From positions 1 through 20,170 of the IMG/VR virus record IMGVR_UViG_3300030388_001233: a stretch of 20,170 bases of DNA. The stretch is one strand, 5' to 3'. This document shows, piece by piece, positions 1,801-10,772 of the stretch. Under the pieces are notes generated by a model. The model had not been told where the DNA came from and did no database searches. It worked only from the letters and a program-made list of their open reading frames with translations. Source of the stretch: a virus. Position numbers and translations under genes: made by a program. Within the stretch, counting starts at the first letter, position 1. Each line of letters opens with the position of its first letter.

Positions 1801-2013
1801 ATGATTACAGTAAAAGTTATGCAAATACCAGGAACCATCCGCGAAGTAGCACTAGAAGACGACGCAACCGTAGCTGACGCATTAGCCGCAGCTGACATGA
1901 CTGTAGGCGCAGGTTACGCGCTCAAAGTAGACGGTAATGAAGCAGAGGTTAGCTACATGCTGACCAACGGCCAAAACATTACGATCTCCAACAGTGCAAA
2001 AGGTAACGTTTAG
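1801..2013 (+). CDS. Ubiquitin-like beta-grasp protein, 70 aa
   Basis: A 70-residue protein with the strand-helix-strand layout of beta-grasp carriers (MoaD, ThiS and phage ubiquitin-like proteins). ITVKVMQIPG then REVALEDD form the first hairpin. ATVADALAAADM is the helix. YALKVDGNEAE, YMLTNGQNI and TISNSAKG are the later strands. It ends K67-G68-N69-V70, so it has a single glycine followed by two residues rather than a terminal Gly-Gly. AGGAAG at 1788-1793 is the ribosome binding site. The genes that follow encode E2-like, E1-like and JAB proteins. This arrangement is what identifies it as a protein modifier rather than a sulfur carrier for a cofactor: no thiamine or molybdopterin gene is near. 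The family assignment is from the pattern only. Confidence 0.75.
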   Translation: MITVKVMQIPGTIREVALEDDATVADALAAADMTVGAGYALKVDGNEAEVSYMLTNGQNITISNSAKGNV

Positions 2014-2023
2014 TTCGACCTCA

Positions 2024-2057
2024 GTAAGTCTTACTAATTCCGGTTAGTAAGACTTAC
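2024..2057. repeat. Perfect 14-bp inverted repeat between Ubl and E2-like genes
   Basis: GTAAGTCTTACTAA (2024-2037) and TTAGTAAGACTTAC (2044-2057) are exact reverse complements with a six-base spacer, TTCCGG. No T-run follows (the next bases are AACCCTAATAATATATT), so it is not a standard terminator. It could be an RNA hairpin protecting the 3' end of the ubiquitin-like message, an attenuator that lowers E2/E1/JAB expression, or a DNA operator. The segment TTAGTAAGAC also occurs at bases 5-14. Confidence 0.8.
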
Positions 2058-2089
2058 AACCCTAATAATATATTCAATTGGAGGAGCCA

Positions 2090-3511
2090 ATGGATACACA
2101 AATAGCTTTCGGGCGCATGCACCCGCAATGGAATCAAAAGTGCCGTGACTTTAGCGGCGACTTAATGCACAGCGAGTATTCCACAAACAATTTACAAGTC
2201 ATTAAAGAACAATTCATGACTCGTGTTTCAGACTTAATTGACGGCGCGTATCAACCTGTTGTGACTTCACGCAACGAGCTCCGCGCTCAACTAATGGCTA
2301 TGTCTGCAATCAAAAAAGTAATATTTCGTAAAAACGCTATATCTATCCAACTTAACGATATTACGTGCAAACCGTCTAGCAGCAACATCGGATGTATTGA
2401 AGACGAATTCAGAAGCTACGGCAAAGATCCTAACGTTAACGTTATTATCCCAGGGTTAATCTTAGGCGTCAGGTGGGACGTTCGACCACATACTACAGAC
2501 TTTGTTTACACCCTTAATGTATCCAAAAATATCGGCCAAAAACACAAAGGGTATTGCGGACGAAACCTTGCTCACCCTCACTGGATAACTCGAAACGACC
2601 CTTGTCTAGGTGACTTTCAGCAAGCCGTCAGTAACGCTCAACATGACTTAAATATCCCGCTACAAATCACAGTTCTAATTATGTACTTAGAACAATACGA
2701 CTACAGAGACTGCGCTGGCGGCTACATGCACAGGTGGGCACCAATACGCACGTTATTGCCTGACCCGTTTGCAGAGCTCGAAGACGATGGTTTTCAGATC
2801 AATAGCGCATACGCTTTAGACTTCGATCCTCGAGACGTTGTACCTTATGAAGACACTTTAAAAGCCTATGAATGGCTGCTTGCCCAAAGCGAAATCACGC
2901 CGCTTCCGGGGTGTTTCGAAGAACCTAATATTTTAAACTGTTTCGGCGCGTTAGCAGTTCACATCCAACGCGAGTTCGAAACAAGCCTACTGGCCATACG
3001 AATTATAAAACTAGCATATGTAAGCACCTGGTCTAACAACGAACAGTTAAACCTAGCTTATTATGAAAAACGTATGAACGCCGCTTCCAGTGTTGGCAGC
3101 TTTATTAAAAGCATAAATATCAAACACGACTACCGTTTGTACTTTGCAACAGCGTGGGGCCACATAGACAACTACGACCATGAGTACTATCTAGAACAAC
3201 ATAACGTAACAATATTTGATCATCACTATTGTCCACTTAACGACGGGGCACTAATAATCCTCCAAGATAAAAACAATAGTATTAAACAACCCCCACTTCA
3301 ATTTGCTCAATATATAGAAATGGGCTCACAAAGCTTAGAATCGTTTTACAAATTACAAACTGCAACTGCAGAAAATGACACGCTTGCTTGCCACACTATG
3401 CGCAAAATACTACACGCCCGTAGCCAAGGATTTTGCAATGACACCGCTTTGCAGATCCTTACAAACGAAATAAATACTAATTATCCACACGAGGACTCAG
3501 ATGATGAGTGA
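2090..3511 (+). CDS. E2-like ubiquitin-conjugating enzyme fold protein, 473 aa
   Basis: I chose the ATG at 2090, with GGAGG at 2080-2084 five bases before it, over the in-frame TTG at 2078. Residues about 125-220 resemble an E2 (UBC) fold: strands around RWDVRPHTTDFVYTLNV, then H162-P163-H164, seven residues, and C172 followed by LGD. That spacing equals the HPN-x7-Cys active site of classical E2 enzymes, with the oxyanion Asn replaced by His. After it, PLQITVLIMYLEQYDYRD and a terminal HRW match the helix and loop that follow the E2 cysteine. Prokaryotic E2-like proteins from phages and plasmids commonly carry HPH...C and a nearby Y..W. The N-terminal 120 residues and the roughly 250-residue C-terminal part, which contains several His and Cys, match nothing I know. 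The C-terminal part could select substrates. Its last codons overlap the E1-like gene. Confidence 0.75.
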   Translation: MDTQIAFGRMHPQWNQKCRDFSGDLMHSEYSTNNLQVIKEQFMTRVSDLIDGAYQPVVTSRNELRAQLMAMSAIKKVIFRKNAISIQLNDITCKPSSSNIGCIEDEFRSYGKDPNVNVIIPGLILGVRWDVRPHTTDFVYTLNVSKNIGQKHKGYCGRNLAHPHWITRNDPCLGDFQQAVSNAQHDLNIPLQITVLIMYLEQYDYRDCAGGYMHRWAPIRTLLPDPFAELEDDGFQINSAYALDFDPRDVVPYEDTLKAYEWLLAQSEITPLPGCFEEPNILNCFGALAVHIQREFETSLLAIRIIKLAYVSTWSNNEQLNLAYYEKRMNAASSVGSFIKSINIKHDYRLYFATAWGHIDNYDHEYYLEQHNVTIFDHHYCPLNDGALIILQDKNNSIKQPPLQFAQYIEMGSQSLESFYKLQTATAENDTLACHTMRKILHARSQGFCNDTALQILTNEINTNYPHEDSDDE

Positions 3512-4193
3512 TTTAAACTTATCCCGACATTTGTCAGTATTTAACCCGCTTGATCATCCAGCACCTGTCCACATTATCGGCGCTGGAGCAACAGGTTCAC
3601 GGCTATGGCTAGCTCTTATCGAACTAGGCATTACTAATATATCTATTTATGACTTCGACAACGTCGAATCACACAACCTTGCCAACCAGATATACCTCAA
3701 TAAACATATAGGTATGCCTAAAGTCGATGCGCTGCGTGACTATTACACCCTTAAAACAGGCGTCACACCCCCTGACACCATGAACTTTGTAAATGAGAAA
3801 ATTACATCAAGCTGGCGTAACGAGTTCGACGGCTCAATTTTCATCCTAACTGACACTATGTCATCACGCCGTGAAATATTCGAAACGTTTTGCGCAGCCA
3901 ACCCGTTCATACACCGTGTGTTTGAAACACGCATGGCCTCAACGCACGGCAATGTAAATACTGTTAACCCTAACAACTACACAGACAGCCTCGCATGGCT
4001 TGACAGTTTAGTTGATGACGATGCACCTGGCGAAACATCAGCTTGTGGCGCAAGCATTAGCGTAGGTACTACCGCATCAGTTATTGCAAACCTAGCCGTA
4101 TGGCAATTTATTCTTAGTTGTACAGACCTTGTAGGTGTTGACCCAAACATCGAACTATTCCTAAAACCACTAATCATTTCAAAAGGTAACTAA
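3501..4193 (+). CDS. ThiF/E1-like adenylating enzyme, 230 aa
   Basis: A Rossmann-fold E1/ThiF/MoeB-type protein expected to adenylate the C-terminus of the ubiquitin-like partner. Visible features are HIIGAGATGS at 24-33 (nucleotide loop), YDFDNVE at 50-56 (acidic ribose site), N59 and Q63, K74 in MPKVDAL, and the ILTDT strand with D118. The Arg that usually precedes the Gln (NLxRQ) is Asn62 here. C182 in the segment TSACGAS sits where the E1 cysteine or crossover loop is expected and is the best catalytic candidate. There are no zinc-binding CxxC pairs, and at 230 residues it is a minimal E1. Tandem ATGs exist at 3501 and 3504. GAGGA at 3490-3494 serves either. It overlaps the E2-like gene by 11 bases, so the two are translationally coupled. 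Confidence 0.88.
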   Translation: MMSDLNLSRHLSVFNPLDHPAPVHIIGAGATGSRLWLALIELGITNISIYDFDNVESHNLANQIYLNKHIGMPKVDALRDYYTLKTGVTPPDTMNFVNEKITSSWRNEFDGSIFILTDTMSSRREIFETFCAANPFIHRVFETRMASTHGNVNTVNPNNYTDSLAWLDSLVDDDAPGETSACGASISVGTTASVIANLAVWQFILSCTDLVGVDPNIELFLKPLIISKGN

Positions 4194-4194
4194 A

Positions 4195-5022
4195 ATGTCG
4201 CGTAAAAAAACTAAATCAGGGATCAAAACAACTCCCAAACTAATAAGTCCATACTCCGTAGACACCGGTGGGCTAGACCCCCGGCTTAGTTACATAGAAG
4301 GGCCAGGCTTAACAGCTCCGAAGTTAACGCCAACCGTGTACATCGAACCAAGAGCCTTTCAGAAAATGCAGCAAATCGTCGACGAATGCTCAAAAGAAGT
4401 AGGCTGGTTCTGTACCGTAGACAAAATTGACGACGAAGCTTACTTGCTCACCGAAGTCTATCTACCATCTCAAGAAGTCACTGCAGTAGAAACTGATATA
4501 CCTGGCGAAGCTGTAGAAGAAACATACTTAGCAATTCTTGCTGAAGGTAAAGACCCAAGTACTATGTACGCATGGTTCCACAGCCACGTCGACATGGGTG
4601 TTACACCCAGCAGACAAGACGAAACTCAAGTAGAAACGTTTCTCCAAACATGCCCCGTGTTTATCCGAGGCATTATAAACAAACGTGGCGAAATGAAAGT
4701 TGACTTGTATCTCCGCGACGAAGGCATTGCTTACAACTCAGTAAATGTAGAACGCTACTTTGACCCACTCACAACTGCAGAAGTTACAGCCTTATCTGCT
4801 GAAATAAAAAGCAAAGTCAAAAACCAAATTATGCCCGCAACAAAGTTTCCGTGGACCCTTAATAACCAAAAAGGATCTGCGCTAGCCGTTCCCCCAGCTA
4901 CTGTATATAACAACGGCTACCCCTTAGATAACGACAACACCTACGAAGGTTACACCCCTCGATCTAATAATAGTTACAACCCATCAAACCACTGGAATTA
5001 TGGAGACAGTTATGAAGATTAG
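4195..5022 (+). CDS. JAB/JAMM metallo-isopeptidase (deubiquitinase-like), 275 aa
   Basis: The full JAMM zinc-protease signature is present: E68 in KEVGW, then H129-S-H131 in WFHSH, S139 and D142 in PSRQD. This HSHVxMGVxPSxxD form is common among phage and plasmid JAB proteins that sit next to ThiF genes. Such enzymes cleave after the C-terminal glycine of ubiquitin-like proteins, either maturing the precursor or removing it from targets. The first 45 residues are basic and Pro/Thr-rich. Residues from about 230 form a low-complexity tail rich in Asn, Tyr, Gly and Ser. The gene begins two bases after the E1-like stop with AAAGG at 4182-4186, and its end overlaps the next gene. Confidence 0.9.
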   Translation: MSRKKTKSGIKTTPKLISPYSVDTGGLDPRLSYIEGPGLTAPKLTPTVYIEPRAFQKMQQIVDECSKEVGWFCTVDKIDDEAYLLTEVYLPSQEVTAVETDIPGEAVEETYLAILAEGKDPSTMYAWFHSHVDMGVTPSRQDETQVETFLQTCPVFIRGIINKRGEMKVDLYLRDEGIAYNSVNVERYFDPLTTAEVTALSAEIKSKVKNQIMPATKFPWTLNNQKGSALAVPPATVYNNGYPLDNDNTYEGYTPRSNNSYNPSNHWNYGDSYED

Positions 5023-5380
5023 TTCAGTAGAAATTGAAGCGACTTTACCTCAGTTTTATGGCTCGTATCATTTTACAAAATGGTCCCCACTCACTAAAAG
5101 TGTATTGACTGACGGGGCATTATACCTCGCAGAATCTGCGCAAGCGTTCTGGCTATTCGACGTTATCGATAGCCACGTAACACGACTTGGAGAAGACATG
5201 GTGCAATCAATTATTAATGTTCAAGAAGACAACACAGCAACTGTAGAACTCGACGATATGAACGAAAATATCATCGCCTCGCAGCTTGTGCCATACACAG
5301 ACTTCCCACTTAAAACCATAAAAATATGGTCTACCCGTAACGAGAACGGATTTACTCACATGCTGCCATCAGAGTACTAA
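5012..5380 (+). CDS. DUF6876-like protein, 122 aa
   Basis: Start at 5012, with GGAG at 5002-5005 six bases upstream. The start overlaps the end of the JAB gene by eleven bases. An ATG at 5000 lacks a ribosome binding site. The layout is HFTKWSPL early, LTDGALYLAESAQAFWLFDVIDS in the middle, and YTDFPLKTIKIW then a final LPSEY. It matches my memory of the DUF6876 family, small proteins of unknown function found on phages and plasmids. The gene is translationally coupled to the ubiquitin-like cassette, so it may be part of it or a passenger. No catalytic motif is evident. Confidence 0.75.
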   Translation: MKISSVEIEATLPQFYGSYHFTKWSPLTKSVLTDGALYLAESAQAFWLFDVIDSHVTRLGEDMVQSIINVQEDNTATVELDDMNENIIASQLVPYTDFPLKTIKIWSTRNENGFTHMLPSEY

Positions 5381-5382
5381 CC

Positions 5383-5691
5383 ATGAATACCAACGACGAT
5401 TGGAAAGATGAGTACTACTGCGCTGAAGTATTTGTTCGTGTCCAGTACAGACACAAAATATTAATAAGAGTAACGGACGGCGGCGATCCTGAAGAAGCCA
5501 CATTAAAATACTTAAAATCGTGTTCGATGCAAGATTTAACATTCGATACCTATCGGGAAAATTGGCAAGATAACCCAGATTGCGCTACTGAAAATGATCA
5601 GTTTGAAATAGCCAATTTATGGGATAGGAGCGACGATTGGGACGGATGTTGTTTAAAAGATGGCGCAGAAAATGAGAAATACAAATCATGA
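5383..5691 (+). CDS. Hypothetical acidic protein, 102 aa
   Basis: A 102-residue acidic protein beginning two bases after the DUF6876-like stop, with only a weak ribosome binding site (GAG). It contains scattered Cys and Trp residues, with C99-less pairs too far apart for a clear zinc site. An N-terminal YYCAEVFVRVQYRHKILIRV segment could form two beta strands. No family recognised. Its stop overlaps the next start (ATGA at 5688), which places it at the head of the coupled small-gene run. Confidence 0.65.
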   Translation: MNTNDDWKDEYYCAEVFVRVQYRHKILIRVTDGGDPEEATLKYLKSCSMQDLTFDTYRENWQDNPDCATENDQFEIANLWDRSDDWDGCCLKDGAENEKYKS

Positions 5692-6023
5692 ACAAGTACC
5701 TTGAATCGCCGCAGCCGTGTATTCATTGCGAACGTCCAACCATCTTTGGTTCAGGCAGATTCGTAAACCGCCTGCCCGCAGACACGTACCACGGACTACC
5801 AAACGGTAAAGCCGAGTATCGAGACGGGTACGCATGCGCAGAATGCATGGCCATAGATTGCGACAGGTGTCCAGACTCAATCGAGTTAGACGAAGACATA
5901 GGCGTAGAACAAGTCTACGGCGAAAACACCCTTCGCCACCTATTCGACGACGGCGCATGGAGAGTTCACGAAAAATGTCTAACGCCAGGCGAACAAATCC
6001 TATTCAAAGAGGAAGAATCATGA
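5688..6023 (+). CDS. Cysteine-rich zinc-finger-like protein, 111 aa
   Basis: CxxC pairs at C11/C14, C50/C53 and C58/C61, plus C97, suggest one or two small zinc-binding modules. The product is otherwise soluble. Function unknown. The start overlaps the previous stop, and the 3' end carries the repeated junction GAGGAAGAATCATGA, so the protein ends in KEEES. A minus-strand reading over this region is Arg-rich and is a shadow of this gene. Confidence 0.7.
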   Translation: MNKYLESPQPCIHCERPTIFGSGRFVNRLPADTYHGLPNGKAEYRDGYACAECMAIDCDRCPDSIELDEDIGVEQVYGENTLRHLFDDGAWRVHEKCLTPGEQILFKEEES

Positions 6024-6187
6024 AAACTTTTATCGTAAAAGTCTGCGAAACATACTGCGTTGACTACAGAGTAACGGCTAGTTCCAAAGAAGAAGCGTGG
6101 AACGCATGTTGCGATAACAACGTGTACCCCTCTGAAAAATACGACGAAGATTTCAGCATTGTAAAAATCGTAGAGGACGAATCATGA
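6020..6187 (+). CDS. DpnD/PcfM-like small protein, 55 aa
   Basis: MKTFIVKVCETYCVDYRV followed by TASSKEEAWNACC and a C-terminal FSIVKIVEDES. The strand-strand-helix-strand layout with an 'A-x-S-x-E-E-A' turn resembles the DpnD/PcfM-like family of small phage and plasmid proteins of unknown role. The upstream reading in this frame back to 5834 is Arg-rich and is a shadow of the previous gene. Ribosome binding site GAGGAAG at 6009-6015, start overlapping the previous stop by ATGA. Confidence 0.7.
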   Translation: MKTFIVKVCETYCVDYRVTASSKEEAWNACCDNNVYPSEKYDEDFSIVKIVEDES

Positions 6188-6480
6188 GCATCCAAGAGCT
6201 TATCAATGCATTACAAAACGCAATCACTGTTCACCATTACGACCCAGAAACGCCAGTGCAAATAGATATGTTGTGTGAGGAAGGTGAAATAATAGTAGAC
6301 ACTTACTGGAATATTTCAGTAGACGCGTCAGCCGTATCTGAGCCGCGATCACTTGCTATTAACGTGGAAACCCTCGACGAACGCGCTTACTGCGACGGTT
6401 GCGACACCATCCTTAATTACAATGAAGGCGACCTTTGTTGTTGGTGCGAGCAACGAGCTAAAGACGAGGAAGAATCATGA
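6184..6480 (+). CDS. Small protein with C-terminal zinc ribbon, 98 aa
   Basis: The N-terminal half (SIQELINALQNAI then PVQIDM) resembles small phage proteins with one helix and a sheet. The C-terminal third has C70-DG-C73 and C85/C86-W-C88, a probable zinc ribbon. It starts in the repeated GAGGACGAATCATGA junction, and its own end is another copy, giving the tail DEEES. No function can be assigned. Confidence 0.7.
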   Translation: MSIQELINALQNAITVHHYDPETPVQIDMLCEEGEIIVDTYWNISVDASAVSEPRSLAINVETLDERAYCDGCDTILNYNEGDLCCWCEQRAKDEEES

Positions 6481-6863
6481 TTACGGTACAAGGTGTAAAA
6501 CTTGACGACCATGAGATTAATACGTACTTCCAAGATTTATCTTACGGATGGACGCAAATTTGCGAATCGTGCAGAAGTAAATTCTCAGAACATGGCATAG
6601 ACCACAATAGCGGTCATGGCATATGTGGTGTGTTTGGTTGCGAAAATGATTCTAACCATTATTTAGACTTTGATAAAAGTGAGGTAGCAGATGACCAGCA
6701 AAGAATCATGAGCTACCAATTAGAACTGTTCCAAACTGTGCATTGTTTAACCTGCGACGGAGTATTCACCGAAAATATTGACCAATTCACCATAATCGAA
6801 AAATGCCCGTACTGCGGCAATGCAGACAAACAACAAACCGTTTACTTAGAGGACGAATCATGA
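6477..6863 (+). CDS. Double zinc-ribbon-like protein, 128 aa
   Basis: Four cysteine pairs are visible: C29/C32, C50/C55, C90/C93 and C110/C113. They probably form two four-cysteine zinc ribbons, with an acidic linker between them. The last pair, KCPYCGN, is typical of rubredoxin-like knuckles. Nucleic-acid or protein binding is likely from the fold class, but no specific role is visible. Start and end both lie in copies of the junction repeat, and the tail reads LEDES. Confidence 0.7.
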   Translation: MITVQGVKLDDHEINTYFQDLSYGWTQICESCRSKFSEHGIDHNSGHGICGVFGCENDSNHYLDFDKSEVADDQQRIMSYQLELFQTVHCLTCDGVFTENIDQFTIIEKCPYCGNADKQQTVYLEDES

Positions 6864-7024
6864 GTATTAAATTTGAGACTAAAACCATCATGCTTGGGGA
6901 CTTTGATAAGCAAGACACTGAAATGCTTTCAGAGATTATTCAATCAGCTCTTAGCGATAAAAGTATCGATCCAGCATCTTTCGCTTTCCATATAGAGGTT
7001 GAGTACACGGAAGACGAATCATGA
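6860..7024 (+). CDS. Hypothetical small acidic protein, 54 aa
   Basis: A short protein (MSIKFETKTIMLGDFDKQ...) with one likely helix around TEMLSEIIQSAL and a C-terminal strand FHIEVEY, ending TEDES. The ATG at 6860 has GAGGAC eight bases upstream and overlaps the previous stop. The upstream part of this frame is a shadow of the zinc-ribbon gene. No family recognised. Confidence 0.65.
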   Translation: MSIKFETKTIMLGDFDKQDTEMLSEIIQSALSDKSIDPASFAFHIEVEYTEDES

Positions 7025-7191
7025 GCACATACGAAGCATGGGTTACAGGTGTAGTAGGCAGACATGTAACAGTCGAAGCCAAAAATCAAGAAGCCGCTGA
7101 AATCGAAGCAATACGAGAGTTTAGCGCGCTAGTCGGAACAGAGTGCGACGTTGAAGTCGAAGACATTGAAGAAGTAGGAGAAGAGTCATGA
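7021..7191 (+). CDS. DpnD/PcfM-like small protein, 56 aa
   Basis: MSTYEAWVTGVVGRHVTVEA, then KNQEAAEIEAIREF and CDVEVEDIEEV. The layout is the same as for the product of 6020-6187: two strands, an Ala/Glu helix, and an acidic strand. I read the two as distant paralogues in the DpnD/PcfM-like class. Ribosome binding site GAAGACG at 7010-7016. It ends in a degenerate junction (GGAGAAGAGTCATGA), giving the tail GEES. Confidence 0.65.
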   Translation: MSTYEAWVTGVVGRHVTVEAKNQEAAEIEAIREFSALVGTECDVEVEDIEEVGEES

Positions 7192-7346
7192 CCCTACAAG
7201 AAACTATAGATGCGTGCGACAAATTACGGGAAGAATCAGAAGGCGTAGGGCTATCTGATTCATTAGTCCAAATCGTTGAGTTTGCTTACTGGAAAGGATA
7301 CAACAAAATGTTCTTCAAAGCCTACATAACCGAGGACGAATCATGA
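7188..7346 (+). CDS. Hypothetical small protein, 52 aa
   Basis: A short helical protein (MTLQETIDACDKLREESEG..., then LVQIVEFAYWKGYNKMF). It is bounded by ATGA overlaps on both sides and ends ITEDES from the repeated junction. I rely on the perfect coupling on both sides and the absence of another frame; no family is recognised. Confidence 0.6.
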   Translation: MTLQETIDACDKLREESEGVGLSDSLVQIVEFAYWKGYNKMFFKAYITEDES

Positions 7347-10583: not shown

Positions 10584-10772
10584 ATGTCCAGATTAGTACT
10601 GACTCGCAAACTAAACGAAGAAATAGTCATTCATAATGACGACGGCGTCTTAGCGAATATCAAAATATCAAGGATTGATCGCAACCAGGTTAGGATAACA
10701 TTTGAAGCGGACAATGCTGTTAAAATAGATAGACAAGAAATCTTCGATAAGACGCTTTTTCTACAAAAATAA
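10584..10772 (+). CDS. csrA: Phage-encoded CsrA/RsmA-like RNA-binding regulator, 62 aa
   Basis: MSRLVLTRKLNEEIVI, ANIKISRIDRNQVRITFEA and AVKIDRQEIF reproduce the CsrA pattern. The N-terminal RNA-contact residues L6-T7-R8 and R50 (equivalent to E. coli L4-T5-R6 and R44) are present. CsrA dimers bind GGA in hairpin loops, often over ribosome binding sites, and repress translation or alter message stability. This copy is slightly longer than the bacterial protein, with an insertion around NDDGV. It starts three bases after the polymerase stop without a clear ribosome binding site, so it is probably translationally coupled. Targets could be phage messages with GGA-rich leaders (2080, 8379, 10812) or host messages. 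Which of these applies cannot be told here. Confidence 0.92.
   Translation: MSRLVLTRKLNEEIVIHNDDGVLANIKISRIDRNQVRITFEADNAVKIDRQEIFDKTLFLQK

Follow-up and report, generated by a model that had tools for sequence, protein, structure and literature searches.

Complete E1–E2–Ubl–JAMM pathways are known from eukaryotes, from some archaea, and from bacterial defence islands or plasmids. The locus described here raises the question of whether a phage can also carry such a ubiquitin-like (Ubl) conjugation cycle and, if so, which proteins it would modify. The stretch of DNA analysed, hereafter the window, is a 20,170-base viral contig from IMG/VR. The reading that we favour, with a probability of about 0.72, is that four of its genes form a self-contained Ubl conjugation cycle acting early in infection, in which E2 chooses the target and a host protein is the likeliest substrate. 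That conjugation takes place is an inference from conserved chemistry, and no covalent adduct has been shown. No paper on phage-borne Ubl-E2-E1-JAB sets was found in the open-licence literature, and since the search was confined to such papers, priority is unproven.

Gene content of the locus

The preliminary description of this DNA had claimed four consecutive genes for a modifier cycle. This claim held, as the open reading frames of the Ubl, the E2-like protein, the ThiF/E1, and the JAMM protein were located on the plus strand at window positions 1801–5022, followed by a DUF6876 gene, and their identities were backed by relatives. As single proteins, only the E1 (ThiF, 1.3e-18) and DUF6876 (7.8e-26) gave firm family matches; Prok-JAB was weak (0.039), and the E2-like protein had no match in Pfam, PHROGs, NCBIfam, or PADLOC. 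Ubl, E2, and JAB being weak or unmatched alone, firmer matches for them were obtained once relatives were added to the profiles. The rest of the window was the early region of a temperate phage, as previously proposed, with integrase, repressor, DNA polymerase, primase-helicase, exonuclease, and helicase genes.

The gene at the end of the cassette (5000–5380, plus strand), which had been called DUF6876-like, does belong to this family, with a probable alternative start at 5012 preceded by GGAG. It is accessory, however, and was ruled out as a core part, as it was seen only in the window, L001, and L008, next to cassettes of the window type or of L008.

Further genes of the window were recorded separately. 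A CsrA-like protein of 62 aa is encoded at 10584–10772, flanked by the genes for the phage DNA polymerase and primase. A Cys-rich protein of 111 aa (5688–6023), whose RING-like match is weak (0.007) and which also matches PHROG 35699 (3e-18), is retained in L001 and absent from the other loci. Small open reading frames follow in series at 6023–7346, with a near-identical junction (GAGGACGAATCATGA) and proteins ending in ...EDES/EEES; between junctions resembling these, L001 has other small genes, a pattern suggesting that cassettes are exchanged at the repeat.

The modifier and its C-terminal end

The Ubl gene (1801–2013, plus strand) encodes 70 aa ending in ...SAKGNV. With relatives included, its profile matched SAMP2 (1.4e-5), and the AF2 model (pLDDT 84.5) was closest in fold to SAMP1, SUMO, and ubiquitin. 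Both the profile and the model indicated a beta-grasp fold with a free C-terminal tail, in agreement with the beta-grasp carrier proposed at the outset, and KGN-ending relatives were also found. In most Ubls of the family the tail is Lys-Gly-Asn and not Gly-Gly. Lys-Gly-Asn was the exact end of 29 of 70 unique Ubl sequences, and 15 others were one residue longer. Divergent bacterial relatives had EGG or KGG at the place of KGN, while some phage Ubls ended in KSAA, KGA, or KTNNA, so that several ends (KTNNA, KSAA) had no Gly. Some Ubls were tandem, with KGN at every junction. Separately, L036 (9222–9887) and L064 (9221–9886) encode a second multi-Ubl protein of 221 aa about 2.3 kb away from the cassette.

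Immediately behind the Ubl stop codon and ahead of E2, a 15-bp RNA hairpin was predicted at 2024–2057 on the plus strand (−23 kcal/mol, z −4.4). Across the family, z values below −2 were obtained at this place in 59% of 112 cases, versus 12–19% after the other genes; when only internal gaps were considered, the values were 58% after Ubl versus 33% (p 5.5e-4). The hairpins recurred at the same place with unrelated sequences. By inference, the hairpin may serve to hold the modifier at a higher level than its enzymes.

The E1 and JAMM enzymes

The E1 gene (3501–4193, plus strand) encodes a minimal adenylyltransferase of 230 aa, whose profile was closest to UBA1 (1.2e-14), ThiF, and MoeB, with Cap2 also matched. 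The GxGxxG motif, the catalytic Asp, and the Lys are present, while the Arg of NLxRQ is replaced by Asn (NLANQ). The protein is a single domain without a separate Cys domain. C182 (4044–4046), at the site of the conserved Cys of MoeB/ThiF, was Cys in 76/77 relatives, which bears out the earlier assignment of a minimal ThiF/E1 with this residue. The JAMM/JAB metallopeptidase (4195–5022, plus strand; 275 aa) carries E68, H129-S-H131, S139, and D142, and its profile, with relatives, was closest to Rpn11 (1.1e-5). The full set of E, HxH, S, and D was present in essentially all of about 80 relatives, so the zinc and catalytic residues ascribed to the isopeptidase, H129 included, were all recovered.

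A sulfur-carrier or cofactor pathway of the ThiS/MoaD type, with the Ubl donating sulfur and the E2-like protein having no kinship to UBC, would agree with a ThiF-like E1, often annotated as thiamine biosynthesis, and with SAMPs as the best Ubl matches. Archaeal SAMPs have both conjugation and sulfur-carrier roles. We consider this pathway improbable, since an E2-like gene bearing the invariant PH..C..D lies alongside in nearly all cases, the Ubl ends in KGN or KTNNA whereas sulfur carriers end in Gly-Gly, and no cofactor genes were found among the shared neighbours. Tandem Ubls and a JAMM protein also suit conjugation better.

The E2-like protein

The E2-like gene (2090–3511, plus strand) encodes 473 aa from its ATG, with a putative UBC-like core at about residues 55–232 and a variable C-terminal half. 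The active-site block H162-P163-H164-x7-C172 is encoded at 2573–2605, and D207, 35 residues after C172, at 2708–2710. P163, H164, C172, and D207 were invariant in all 57 aligned sequences, many of them just 9–15% identical to the window E2, which supports the HPH-x7-Cys motif noted earlier, C172 included. The distance from H164 to C172 was 8 in 44/57 sequences, as it is between HPN and Cys in eukaryotic E2s and between HPH and Cys in UBE2W, and that from C172 to D207 was 35 in 55/57. D207 aligned with the UBC Asp region; the window E2 has the UBC/E2 superfamily feature of HPN/HPH-x7-Cys with a downstream Asp. Conserved chemistry was observed for each step of the proposed cycle.

Evidence for the fold was weaker. 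The E2 profile matched a UBC profile, made from the archaeal E2 of L192 and four manually entered human E2 sequences, with 91.8% probability over 119 columns, HPH falling on HPN and Cys on Cys. The score of 42.4 was reached by none of 200 column shuffles (maximum 17.7) and none of 200 block shuffles that kept the motif (maximum 38.2). Without the active-site block, the score was 17.2, which is not above the best column shuffle. The structural model was confident only in the core, at about residues 61–220, where the order of secondary structures fits UBC, and Foldseek with the whole model returned no significant match to UBC or to anything else. Since the profile match depends on the motif and Foldseek was null, the UBC fold is likely but unproven; the E2-like chemistry is well supported, and so is the earlier view of the 473-residue protein as E2-like. 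Other searches were also negative: tblastn of this E2 against phages and of a relative against plasmids found nothing, the E2-core profile against the PDB gave DARPin repeats and a weak UBE2W match, neither significant, and Pfam found no family common to all 57 cores.

The E2s of the family are 257–892 aa long, and the core can sit at the N-terminal or the C-terminal end. Cys-rich segments outside the core occurred in nine E2s, and in these Pfam found no RING and only a weak FYVE-type match. Two adjacent E2-type genes were seen in L049, L055, L058, L060, L067, L068, L071, L073, and L099. Most of the second copies retain His and Cys, some lack Pro, and the L099 copy lacks Cys; the idea that the second copies are pseudo-E2s was dropped, since His and Cys are retained in most.

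Distribution and gene order

An alignment search with E1 confirmed 218 related contigs in IMG/VR, from a few kb up to 395 kb in size, although the viral status of every contig was not checked. Eighty of these relatives were kept, and a JAB search gave 32 loci. Ubl, E2, JAB, and E1 were adjacent in 58/80 non-redundant loci, shuffled into at least six gene orders, and a joint occurrence of this extent indicates that the four-gene grouping is not due to chance. The four cassette genes were the sole gene families shared across lineages, with no other common neighbour; five loci in which profiles detected no Ubl contained a divergent one. Operon structure and distribution are thus matters of observation. 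The surmise that the window might hold an undescribed variant was right in that it is neither PRTRC nor Bil, but the arrangement is no one-off, belonging instead to a widespread phage family.

In GTDB genomes, 68 further loci were found, of which the proviral share is undetermined; their hosts are Melainabacteria, candidate phyla, Myxococcales, Clostridia, Methylomirabilota, Allochromatium, and some few archaea. Allochromatium humboldtianum harbours a close relative as a prophage (L010, identical to L123). E1 was also present in isolate jumbo phages of Xanthomonas and Erwinia, the former having E2 and a GG-ending Ubl-like gene as well; no JAB was found. Since relatives exist in culture, direct testing is feasible. 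Flavobacterium and crAss-like phages carry related E1 and JAB genes and an HxH..C protein at the E2 position. This protein is supported only by its position, the HxH..C motif, and a weak profile match (12.9%), and no Ubl was matched by profile in these phages; accordingly, this set is a lead only. Apart from these, a human gut phage (L004, 6954–8291) has an E2-JAB-E1 cassette directly followed by a reverse-transcriptase-like gene, which from the reading of its sequence may be a diversity-generating element.

In unrelated phages, the cassette lies beside polymerase, primase-helicase, exonuclease, SSB, UDG, and topoisomerase genes. Such neighbours would be expected if the cassette modified phage or replication-fork proteins for replication or assembly, outside any conflict with host defence. 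This explanation is somewhat unlikely in our judgement, as the replication genes differ from lineage to lineage, and a substrate of this kind would be expected to constrain E2, yet E2 evolves fastest, as described below.

Evolutionary rate of E2 and proposed function

Compared with its near twin L001, the window had an identical E1, a JAB of 99% identity, and an E2 of only 89%. The ratio of nonsynonymous to synonymous changes was 65:15 in E2 versus 13:39 in five other genes (p 1.7e-10), and the E2 changes clustered around the active site and in residues 361–473. In five further phage pairs, omega was highest for E2 among E1, JAB, and E2, with values of 0.30–0.50 for E2 and 0.05–0.12 for E1 in four pairs and of 0.20 and 0.08 in the fifth. 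E1 and JAB were under purifying selection. Within the cassette, E2 evolves fastest, and recombination could add to its divergence.

Rapid diversification of E2 would also suit a phage- or prophage-borne defence, functionally like Bil, that tags proteins of competing phages in superinfection exclusion. Bil has been reported to hinder phage assembly by tagging phage tails in a ubiquitin-like manner (cited in PMC12135933), and both the integrase and repressor of the window and the Allochromatium humboldtianum prophage speak for a temperate lifestyle. Nevertheless, replication and early genes, and not defence cargo, surround the cassette, in jumbo and crAss-like phages as well, and E2 and JAB match no known defence model; we regard a defence role as unlikely.

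The favoured reading, a conjugation cycle directed by E2, can be put as a mechanism in which each step is inferred. The JAMM protein would trim the Ubl tail where residues extend beyond its end. E1 would then adenylate the Ubl C-terminus, probably holding Ubl as a thioester on C182, from which it would move to a thioester on C172 of E2. The variable E2 flanks would pick the substrate protein that receives the Ubl, and JAMM would be able to take the tag off again. Since no separate E3 was seen, the large E2 itself probably makes the choice of target. That the substrate is a host protein is the most likely inference and would explain why E2 evolves fastest, but this idea, like the early anti-host role, has no basis other than evolutionary rate and genome position. 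In favour of the proposal are the gene set in 58/80 loci, the near-invariant catalytic residues, the Ubl fold, the tandem KGN Ubls, and the E2 rate; the lack of a demonstrated adduct, the null Foldseek result for E2, the E1 without Arg or a separate Cys domain, and the Ubl ends without Gly count against it.

More tentatively, and with slightly less than an even chance of being correct, tailed phages from many lineages, jumbo phages and perhaps crAss-like gut phages among them, may own a complete KGN-modifier pathway whose target-choosing E2 tags host proteins to disable or redirect them at the start of infection. If true, post-translational tagging would be a common tool or weapon of phages, since the family is present in hundreds of viral contigs. 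The cassette family would also offer many natural examples of minimal E1/E2/Ubl enzymes whose modifier has an unusual end, and would account for phage genes at present labelled as thiamine biosynthesis proteins.

Comparison with known systems

In the E1 tree, 114 members formed one group apart from PRTRC, Cap2, 6a, MoeB, and ThiF (99/86), including a subgroup of 85 mostly phage members (98/99); the root and long branches are uncertain. The PRTRC cassette, equated here with operon type 6d of Iyer 2006 (PMC1779556), has the same four functional classes on mobile DNA (Ubl, E2-like, JAB, and ThiF), for which a phage version of it had to be considered. This derivation is hardly tenable. The 99/86 branch separates the phage E1s from PRTRC ThiF, with which they do not group, and PRTRC E1 retains the Arg where phage E1 has Asn. 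PRTRC E2 (protein B; comparators FNTWDGGAICIG and FNIYEDCRVCLG) lacks the upstream His and has a downstream one, whereas the PH before the Cys is invariant in 57/57 phage E2s, and hhalign gave 0.5% between the two. The PRTRC Ubl has a Gly end (comparator L121), and PRTRC E2, JAB, and Ubl were not recovered by the phage-cassette profiles. PRTRC also includes the extra proteins E, F, and ParB, none of which was found among the scanned window proteins or the shared neighbours across loci; the absence of a ParB-like partner had been correctly noted.

Bil likewise combines Ubl, E1, E2, and JAMM. In BilB, the site is CEHH, with His following the Cys; BilA has two Ubl domains, and BilD is an E1 of two domains that includes a Cys domain (PMC11354881). 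In contrast, the phage E2s have no conserved Glu or His after the Cys, and the window has a single 70-aa Ubl and a 230-aa single-domain E1. Judged on sequence, the phage cassette belongs neither to PRTRC nor to Bil. The Cap2/6a-6b systems share a ThiF E1 and, in the E2 region of L193/L194, PH-x7-C. However, their E1 and E2 are fused, while the genes are separate in the window and surveyed loci, they are tied to a nucleotidyltransferase or metallo-beta-lactamase, and the tree and profiles set them apart. The eukaryotic E2 UBE2W also has HPH instead of HPN at its active site (HPHVYSNGHICL), but otherwise there is no sequence similarity of note.

Archaeal ubiquitin operons resemble the phage cassette in combining Ubl, UBC, a separate E1, and an Rpn11-like JAMM in one operon. 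The Caldiarchaeum type additionally contains a small RING protein (PMC5654768), none of which was identified in the phage cassette. The closest cellular analogue among those read is an Aenigmarchaeota operon (L192, 181–2112) with a Ubl-UBC fusion, a JAMM, and an E1, the last of which has NTANQ, without Arg, as the phage E1 has NLANQ. Its UBC, unlike the phage E2, is a true Pfam UBC domain (5.5e-22) with HPN, and the archaeal operons are cellular, whereas the phage cassette is virus-borne.
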